This document shows, piece by piece, positions 9,326-10,960 of a DNA stretch of 64,000 nucleotides. A program made the position numbers and the translations under genes. This DNA is from Candidatus Woesearchaeota archaeon (GTDB taxonomy: Archaea; Nanobdellota; Nanobdellia; Woesearchaeales; UBA12501), in contig JAUSFM010000014.1 in assembly GCA_030651375.1 (NCBI GenBank), forward strand, positions 1 through 64,000. The letters are read 5' to 3'. The stretch's first letter is position 1. Each line of letters opens with the position of its first letter. Under the pieces are notes generated by a model. That model searched no databases, had not been told where the DNA came from, and saw only the letters and a list, made by a program, of their open reading frames with translations.

Positions 9326-9571
9326 TTAATTTTCTTCTTTGACTTCCTGCAGAATTCGGTCGAGATTGCTCATGATGTGTGTGAGAACGTCATTGTCTGA
9401 AAGCGTTGGATTTCTTGATTTATGCACCAAGGCCTTGTTTGCCGCAGAAAGCATGGCTTGCTTGGTTACCTGCGCGTTTCGCAGCGGGTCAACGCCATTC
9501 TGGGGCTTTTTATTGAGCATACGACTCTTTTGGAGAGGGTGCATAAAAAGTTTTTGGTGGTGGAGAAGCAT
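9326..9571 (-). CDS. Small hypothetical protein
   Basis: An 81-codon frame, mostly polar; starts at residues 10 (9544) or 18 (9520) are also possible. The C-terminal half (NPTLSDNDVLTHIMSNLDRILQEVKEEN) looks like an amphipathic helix. The palindromic TATA-like sequence at 9588-9599 could serve this gene or the tRNA-Gly-like copy on the other strand. No family is recognised. Confidence 0.45.
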   Translation of the reverse strand: MLLHHQKLFMHPLQKSRMLNKKPQNGVDPLRNAQVTKQAMLSAANKALVHKSRNPTLSDNDVLTHIMSNLDRILQEVKEEN

Positions 9572-9587
9572 TGCCGAGCCTAAGAAA

Positions 9588-9599
9588 ACTTTATAAAGT
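9588..9599. promoter_or_regulatory. Symmetric TATA box upstream of the truncated tRNA-Gly copy
   Basis: ACTTTATAAAGT is a perfect palindrome about 25-30 bases ahead of the truncated tRNA-Gly copy. It could act in both directions, also serving the minus-strand small gene ending at 9326. Confidence 0.5.
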
Positions 9600-9621
9600 T
9601 AGTCAAAACCCAATCACTCAA

Positions 9622-9660
9622 CGCACCGGTAGTCTAACGGTAGGATGCCTTCCCCGCATA
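9622..9660 (+). pseudogene. Truncated 5' duplicate of tRNA-Gly
   Basis: Positions 9620-9646 repeat, base for base, the 27 bases at 9755-9781 that cover the leader and the acceptor and D-arms of the intact tRNA-Gly. The homology continues with GCCTTCC after a small deletion and then stops. The 3' half is missing, so no functional tRNA can form. It retains its own TATA box 30 bases upstream, which suggests it is the original 5' end, split from its gene by the inserted DNA. Confidence 0.8.
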
Positions 9661-9754
9661 AGGGCTACCGCCCTTATCAACCCGCGTGCGGCCTACGCGC
9701 TTCGCGCTCGGCCACACAAAAACTATAAATAACAAAAAAAGAATACTCCTGAAA
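9647..9754 (+). repeat. Hairpin-rich non-coding element between tRNA-Gly duplicates
   Basis: About 108 bases separate the truncated and intact tRNA-Gly copies. It contains a perfect 8-bp stem with a 4-base loop (ATAAGGGC/GCCCTTAT, 9657-9676), a GCGC-TTC-GCGC hairpin near 9697-9707, and at its right end the TATA-like AAAACTATAAATAAC (9718-9732), which can promote the downstream intact tRNA. No coding frame is evident. Confidence 0.65.
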
Positions 9755-9757
9755 AAC

Positions 9758-9828
9758 GCACCGGTAGTCTAACGGTAGGATCTCGGCCTTCCAAGCCGAT
9801 AGTCCGGGTTCGAATCCCGGCCGGTGCA
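9758..9828 (+). tRNA. tRNA-Gly (TCC)
   Basis: Complete cloverleaf: acceptor GCACCGG/CCGGTGC with discriminator A, D-arm, anticodon stem TCGGC/GCCGA with loop CTTCCAA (anticodon TCC), and T-arm CCGGG-TTCGAAT-CCCGG. The CCA is not encoded. A TATA box at 9720-9731 has the right spacing. The next gene starts only four bases beyond the tRNA. Confidence 0.95.
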
Positions 9829-9832
9829 TATT

Positions 9833-10255
9833 ATGGTCCGCGTCAACATCATCCGCCCAAGCCATCTTGCTGACCAGCATCTTGTTGCGGAGTACGCCGA
9901 GATTTTGATGATTTTCACGTATGCAAAAAAGCATCCGGACATTGAAGGGATTCCAAAAAAATACTGTCTCGGCACAGGCCACATCAAGTTCTTCAAGAAC
10001 AAGCTTGCTTATTTGAAACAACGGCACGAGGCGCTGAAGAAAGAGATGCGCAAACGCGGATTCACTCCTCAATTTTCTGTTTCCTATGCTGGCATCAAAA
10101 AAGGCCTTATCAAAAACTGGAAACCAACAGCGGCAGACAAGCGAATCATCAAGCAGCGGCTTATCTGGAAACTGAAAAAGAAAAAAGGATTCTACAAATA
10201 CTACGGCAAAAACAAGGCGACCGCCTTTTTCTTACAGATGATAAAGACTGCATGA
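9833..10255 (+). CDS. Pyrimidine-dimer DNA glycosylase (T4 endonuclease V-like)
   Basis: A 140-residue protein. MVRVNIIRPSHLADQHLVAEY matches the N-terminal signature of the T4 DenV/pyrimidine-dimer glycosylase family, in which an N-terminal residue and a following acidic residue act in catalysis; later segments (KFFKNKLAYLKQRHEALKKEM, YAGIKKGL) also fit. It would start base-excision repair of UV dimers. The ATG at 9833 is four bases after tRNA-Gly, so it is probably expressed from the tRNA promoter after end processing. Confidence 0.75.
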   Translation: MVRVNIIRPSHLADQHLVAEYAEILMIFTYAKKHPDIEGIPKKYCLGTGHIKFFKNKLAYLKQRHEALKKEMRKRGFTPQFSVSYAGIKKGLIKNWKPTAADKRIIKQRLIWKLKKKKGFYKYYGKNKATAFFLQMIKTA

Positions 10256-10309: not shown

Positions 10310-10960
10310 ATGGCAGCCAAAGAATCCATCCTCGTGCTCTGCGCCCATTCCGACGACCAAGTCTTCGGCGTTGGCGGCACGCTTGCAAAATATGCTGAAG
10401 AGGGAAAAACAAGCAACGTTATTGTTTTTTCATTCGGCGAGAACTCGCACCCATGGCTTAAGAAGCACATCATTGTCGAAACACGGGTGCAGGAAACAGA
10501 CGAAGCAGGAAAAATTCTGGGCATACAAGAAAATATATTTCTCGGATTGAAAGAAGGAAAATTTAAATCCCAACTCAACCAGGAGGGGATTGAACAACAG
10601 ATGAAGGCCTATTTCAAAAGGTTTAAACCGACAAAAATTTTCACGCATTCGCCCGACGACCCGCATATTGATCATCGCGAAGCAAGCGCGTGGGTAATCG
10701 GTTTTTGCGAACGGAATAAATTTCGCGGGCATGTCTATGGATTTAACGTCTGGACACCGGTAACGATTAAAACCAGAAAACTGCCGGAGATGGTGGTTGA
10801 CATCAGCGCCACCTTCGGCAAGAAAATTAAGGCGCTTCGCTGTTTCAGAAGCCAGTGGATGGCCATGCTCTCTCTTTTGTGGAGCGTGTACTGGAAGGCA
10901 ATCAACAATGGCCGGAAACACCGGATGAAATACGCAGAAGTTTTTTACAAGCTTAGATGA
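10310..10960 (+). CDS. PIG-L family deacetylase
   Basis: A 216-residue zinc-dependent N-acetylglucosamine-type deacetylase. The metal motif reads AHSDDQ near residues 12-17 (AHPDDE in the family) and HSPDDPHIDHR supplies the C-terminal histidines. The family removes acetyl groups from GlcNAc-linked lipids or small thiols. The glycosyltransferase that follows four bases later suggests joint action on a glycan or glycolipid. The Glu-to-Gln change in the first motif is a notable departure. Confidence 0.85.
   Translation: MAAKESILVLCAHSDDQVFGVGGTLAKYAEEGKTSNVIVFSFGENSHPWLKKHIIVETRVQETDEAGKILGIQENIFLGLKEGKFKSQLNQEGIEQQMKAYFKRFKPTKIFTHSPDDPHIDHREASAWVIGFCERNKFRGHVYGFNVWTPVTIKTRKLPEMVVDISATFGKKIKALRCFRSQWMAMLSLLWSVYWKAINNGRKHRMKYAEVFYKLR

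Follow-up and report, generated by a model that had tools for sequence, protein, structure and literature searches.

A tRNA-Gly(TCC) gene of this Candidatus Woesearchaeota archaeon has probably been invaded by a short, non-coding, palindromic mobile element. Comparison of the sequence with its relatives suggests that the fixed end of the element, a hairpin that we call hp1, was joined at a loop of the tRNA and that the stretch from this loop to the edge of the gene was duplicated. We regard the insert as a non-autonomous mini-element, palindromic and with a target duplication of variable length, and not as an integrase-sized island. The features of the locus are as follows (all on the + strand); positions are those of the window, that is, the whole 64,000-nt stretch of DNA that was analysed.

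9587..9600, +, TATA box AACTTTATAAAGTT, a perfect palindrome and probably the promoter that the tRNA had originally (TTTATA starts 33 nt upstream of the outer tRNA copy)
9620..9653, +, outer copy of the duplication (D) of the 5' part of tRNA-Gly, truncated, 4 nt missing between 9646 and 9647 (alignment)
9654..9754, +, inserted element, 101 nt (space between the D copies; absent 5' of tRNA-Gly in relatives)
9654..9685, +, hp1 hairpin CCG-CATAAGGGCTACCGCCCTTATCAACC, the family signature (covariance model, 45 bits; pattern search; compensatory stem changes)
9686..9717, +, hp2, a second hairpin with GCGCTTCGCGCTC, of a kind often found 3' of hp1 (by eye here and at other loci; folding)
9723..9731, +, TATA-like box in the insert (CTATAAATA; TATAAA starts 34 nt before the intact tRNA)
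9755..9792, +, inner D copy, 38 nt, with its end in the anticodon loop (alignment)
9758..9828, +, intact tRNA-Gly(TCC) (ARAGORN, Rfam)

The 27-bp exact repeat described in a sequence-only reading of this DNA was found at 9620-9646 and 9755-9781, and no other direct repeat was found within 9400-10000. Local alignment extended the duplication beyond 27 nt, as 34 outer nt align with 38 inner nt with one 4-nt gap. D spans from 3 nt 5' of the tRNA-Gly(TCC) gene (Rfam tRNA, 69.3 bits) into the anticodon loop, just past the anticodon, and its inner junction (CTTCC/AAGCC) falls between the TCC and the AA of this loop. Since the outer D has lost 4 nt, the insertion at this locus may be old. The 101 nt between the D copies are too short for an open reading frame of at least 80 aa, and the list of frames has none in this place; a search of the curated Rfam families over 9647-9752 gave no match at E-values up to 10. 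The view of the insert as an integrase-type element did not hold: it is of ~101 nt, carries no gene and belongs to a palindromic repeat family.

Insert-free sites were observed in the relatives. A homologue of the neighbouring gene at 10310, which we take to be LmbE-like, is present in 7 of the 29 tRNA loci of relatives that were compared, and tRNA-Gly(TCC) lies beside it in six of these seven (L070 is without a tRNA-Gly match). Inspection by eye revealed no truncated tRNA-Gly copy in the 250 nt upstream in those relatives, and a TATA-like sequence is found in the insert-free relatives at a similar spacing. The proposal that the gene was split by an insertion, with the outer copy as its displaced or duplicated 5' end and the intact copy on the far side, is supported; these relatives are without the truncated copy. 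The intact copy, on the inner side, could be the original or an element-borne one.

With the locus as query against 99 relatives, a 30-nt piece of the insert gave, besides tRNA genes, three matches in G002 and one in G066. In context, these copies have a truncated tRNA end on one side and an intact one on the other, or are placed similarly. A narrow 29-nt motif, searched for with at most 3 mismatches, had matched only this genome among 194 and was superseded by a gapped family pattern, CATAAGG-N3..14-CCTTATCAACC. The gapped pattern is present in 39 of the 352 genomes of the order, two of which (G035 and G024) were judged from the context to be chance matches in coding DNA; the reversed-pattern control gave 0 in every genome. 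A scan of named genomes yielded at least 118 stretches, mostly from Woesearchaeota and other DPANN records, together with some Altiarchaeota, other archaea and a few bacteria among the matches listed, which also include a finished-chromosome record (L193). The own genome has one hp1 copy, at 9654-9685 (45 bits with the covariance model R1, whose 37 training rows include this copy), and the best R1 match elsewhere in the window scored 11.1 bits. Within the same family, G002, G004 and G008 have more copies, and the other six genomes gave no strong hp1 match (best E-values 0.01 to 0.6).

Among the 37 aligned copies, 18 have both partners of the hp1 stem pair at columns 12-19 changed, and none has a change in one partner only. 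Across these copies 99.7% of all stem cells are paired, a value in which the six outer stem pairs, fixed by the search pattern, carry no weight as evidence. The sequence 3' of hp1, judged by eye, is variable: there is either none, or a second hairpin with CTTCGCTC-like letters and then an AT-rich stretch. The element has one fixed end, hp1, and one variable end (hp1 alone, or hp1 with the second hairpin and the AT-rich tail).

At least 139 unique hp1 copies are among the matches listed. We kept 122 for the counts, including the Atribacteria record L222, and dropped 17 (9 viral; 6 bacterial, namely L127, L172, L173, L186, L204 and L207; and 2 coding, L089 and L090). Viruses as carriers of hp1 were rejected: the 9 unique copies from 12 viral stretches have neither a tRNA nor a repeat and look like chance matches in coding DNA. 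Bacterial hairpins similar to hp1 but with longer G/C stems (L172, L173, L186, L204, L207 and L222, from Alkaliphilus, Firmicutes and Atribacteria) lie away from tRNA genes in the stretches read. The two related genomes G339 and G340 carry about 20 hp1 copies each. In L141, L155 and L158, which are from these genomes, hp1 is placed inside larger inverted repeats (GTATTTGTTTAGCTC.. arms), and these copies resemble hairpins nested within the loops of other palindromes.

We observed an ARAGORN tRNA within 300 nt of hp1 for 48 of the 122 copies (among the matches listed). The corresponding figure for random points was 7 of 2000, a control biased low as the 1 kb surrounding hp1 was kept out of it; with some 45 tRNA genes per 1.3 Mb, an unbiased control would be expected to give ~2% by our estimate. 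A direct repeat ending within 14 nt before hp1 was found in 44 of the 122 copies (among the matches listed), and 29 of these repeats were mapped to an ARAGORN tRNA, the other 15 being outside the loop test. By eye, 27 of the 29 mapped duplications (among the matches listed) have their end within or at the border of a tRNA loop, which is the T-loop in 17, the D-loop in 6, the variable loop in 3 and the anticodon loop in 1, the locus described here. Relative to the 33.6% loop letters in those tRNAs this excess has p = 3e-11, which is overstated as it treats the 29 cases, some from related genomes, as independent. The exceptions, L092 and L098, end in a stem, and the sequence before hp1 suggests a T-loop; they are probably T-loop cases with a decayed outer copy.

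The D sequences come from either tRNA half. They match 11 different tRNA families (11 amino acids), which fits copying from the target. The distance from hp1 to D varies from 0 to 111 nt in the 29 cases. Twenty-two of these are 3'-type (tRNA on the opposite strand); the other 7, with this locus among them, are 5'-type. In 6 of the 7 5'-type cases D begins 0 to 3 nt upstream of the tRNA (L184 aligns from 14 nt upstream), and in 20 of the 22 3'-type cases it extends 0 to 26 nt past the tRNA end, the exceptions being L125 (99 nt) and L146 (15 nt short). Duplication of the 5' half, presented earlier as a distinctive point, is real at this locus but not special to the element, as the same hairpin has 3'-end duplications in 22 of the 29 mapped cases. 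The choice of the 5' half is not special also because pTN3-like archaeal integrases use it (PMC8371274).

In seven further copies hp1 directly adjoins one end of an intact tRNA. Two of them (L131 and L151) have a downstream repeat of the tRNA 3' end, and no such repeat was found for the other five. By the test described above, 78 of the 122 copies (among the matches listed) have no repeat ending within 14 nt before hp1, and many of them belong to modules of several hairpins that are not near tRNAs, most of all in G339/G340; tRNA targeting is therefore a strong preference and not a rule. A classical MITE, with terminal inverted repeats and a target duplication of fixed length, does not fit: D is 15 to 116 nt long in the 29 cases, and one end of the element is variable.

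L105 has three tandem units forming a 65-bp tandem; a CRISPR or similar array, which this tandem could suggest, was rejected as the tRNA end is itself part of the repeated unit. G066 has one insertion at its tRNA-Gln site. A related stretch of G122, of the same genus, reads as a tRNA-Gln remnant, hp1, a remnant of a second tRNA, hp1, and then the second tRNA.

Both tRNA copies at our locus are preceded by promoter-like sequences, in agreement with the sequence-only reading. The TATA-like hexamers, both putative promoters, start 33 nt upstream of the outer tRNA start and 34 nt upstream of the inner one; the inner hexamer, TATAAA, is inside the insert as had been stated. Among 8 5'-type loci, 4 have a TATA-like hexamer at -38 to -33 of the outer copy, and one, this locus, has it at -38 to -33 of the inner copy. 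The suggestion that the insert supplies a promoter may hold in this genome, but it does not describe a function of the element, and other 5'-type loci must do without such a promoter. The second TATA box and the choice of the 5' half are not family traits. Because the inner copy has a TATA-like box in only 1 of the 8 loci, read-through from the outer promoter would be an equally good reading here, and it would be the simpler state common to the 5'-type loci. The RNA expected from the outer copy (9623-9722) has a predicted fold of -38.2 kcal/mol (z -2.4), which is largely hp1 and gives no evidence of function. The outer tRNA fragment is probably a relic.

REP/BIME repeats and Rickettsia palindromic elements are short, palindromic and non-autonomous, with many copies per genome in some lineages, and hp1 resembles them in this. 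It differs from them in its strong tRNA-loop preference and variable target duplication, and we identified no partner transposase. Double-hairpin elements have the same traits as the hairpin elements of mitochondria, being short, dispersed and gene-less, with RNA genes among their sites. In sponge mitochondria, hairpin elements are inserted in rRNA genes and near tRNA genes (PMC2800124), and these repetitive elements share with ours the short dispersed hairpins, single or double, the absence of genes and RNA genes among the insertion sites. Unlike the mitochondrial and double-hairpin elements, hp1 is archaeal, ends in tRNA loops and is accompanied by a duplicated tRNA end.

Candidate enzymes were searched for in the 352 genomes. 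The own genome gave 0 matches to reverse transcriptase (RVT_1) and 0 to the Y1 transposase (Y1_Tnp), and Y1_Tnp also gave 0 in G002, which has 4 hp1 copies. Reverse transcriptase was found in 14 of the 37 copy-bearing versus 81 of the 315 other genomes (p = 0.12, uncorrected), and Y1 in 19 of 37 versus 106 of 315 (p = 0.045, uncorrected). Neither was retained as an obvious partner, as no clear association was found across these genomes. One tyrosine recombinase match, in an open frame of 284 aa, is present in the own genome.

This match bears on the reading that the loci are scars of tyrosine recombinases, with hp1 as an attachment-site arm and D as the att core, where either the body was deleted or a mini-element was moved in trans by a pTN3-like or other integrase. 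We consider it unlikely. In PMC8371274, tRNA genes are described as the preferred targets of archaeal tyrosine recombinases, whose cuts are thought to fall at loop borders; pTN3-like and SSV-like integrative elements resemble our loci in the tRNA target, the loop-related breakpoint and the truncated and intact copies, and the pTN3-like cases further in the use of the 5' half and in an element-borne promoter, the tRNA being expressed from the integrase promoter. In Thermococcaceae, tRNA fragments are reported to derive from elements of 9-23 kb (PMC9897764). Unlike the pTN3-like and SSV-like elements, the insert is a gene-less stretch of ~101 nt, the same hairpin is found across many tRNA targets and no large version was seen. 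An integrase gene or a kilobase body between the att copies is absent here, and the gap is always short, as none of the 71 copies that lack a near repeat was found to have one at a greater distance downstream in the flanking DNA examined. Moreover, D ends mostly within the 7-nt loop and not past it, and with D from 11 tRNA families each attP would need a new match.

One-ended transposition of single-stranded hairpins and loops by an HUH or Y1 enzyme (REP/IS200-like) would account for a hairpin with a conserved foot and a covarying stem and for the non-tRNA modules with hp1 between inverted arms (by eye), and Y1 shows the weak association given above. To our knowledge, IS200/IS605 insertions do not duplicate their target. 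This and the lack of a Y1 match in the own genome and in G002 make such an enzyme improbable. That the outer copy is a working 5' half-gene of a split tRNA, joined in trans to a 3' half, is hardly credible. A putatively promoter-bearing 5' half followed by a structured tail would suit it, but the Gly TCC, GCC and CCC genes are all whole in the own genome (CCC with a short T-loop insertion), on which ground the reading was dropped; in addition, no free 3' half fitting the acceptor was found, as the only pattern matches were known tRNAs and two sites without resemblance to a tRNA.

Side observations were made on other tRNA genes. A tRNA-Gly(CCC) gene at L001:950-1045 (G000:C9:137428 onward) has a ~23-nt insertion in the T loop after GGTTCGAA, probably an intron, and was missed by the Rfam tRNA search. 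The tRNA set of G000, a genome rated 100% complete, lists no Asp(GTC), Lys(TTT), Pro(TGG) or Leu(GAG) gene; hidden introns, split genes or gaps could be the causes. Near 413-479 of L042 (G000:C15:118412-118478), the 5' acceptor strand of a Phe-like tRNA mismatches the 3' strand and GGGAA occurs ~30 nt upstream, so that an intron may lie in the acceptor stem.

The fixed hairpin end, the variable other end, the variable D, the loop junctions and the target-matched D together argue that insertion copies the target and that an attP is not brought along. In the reading that we prefer, a break in a tRNA loop is the site of target-primed or templated copying. The hp1 end would be joined to this break (here in the anticodon loop), and the stretch from the loop to just outside the tRNA gene would be duplicated, so that an intact copy is kept and a truncated copy is left outside the element. 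The loop break may prime or receive the hairpin copy, the far-side join may be made at a variable distance by target-primed or templated insertion, and a machine from elsewhere would drive the process. Transcription of the intact gene could then start at the outer promoter and read through, or use the TATA box of the insert. As the breaks are in loops and D extends from there approximately to the termini of the primary transcript, we tentatively raise the possibility of an RNA or ssDNA route that reads the folded tRNA: fragments joined to the hairpin would be copied back beside their own gene, a tRNA-fragment-linked retro-insertion in DPANN archaea.

A literature search found no description of such elements, which is weak evidence of novelty as its coverage of subscription journals was thin. 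A gene-less hairpin that repeatedly lands in the loops of many tRNAs, in either half, with the tRNA end copied at each insertion, would suggest that folded tRNA-gene DNA or RNA is the substrate of an undescribed insertion process. Such a hairpin would also account for those tRNA fragments of DPANN genomes which might be taken for integrase scars, pseudogenes or split tRNAs, and the family gives exact junctions for tests of the mechanism.
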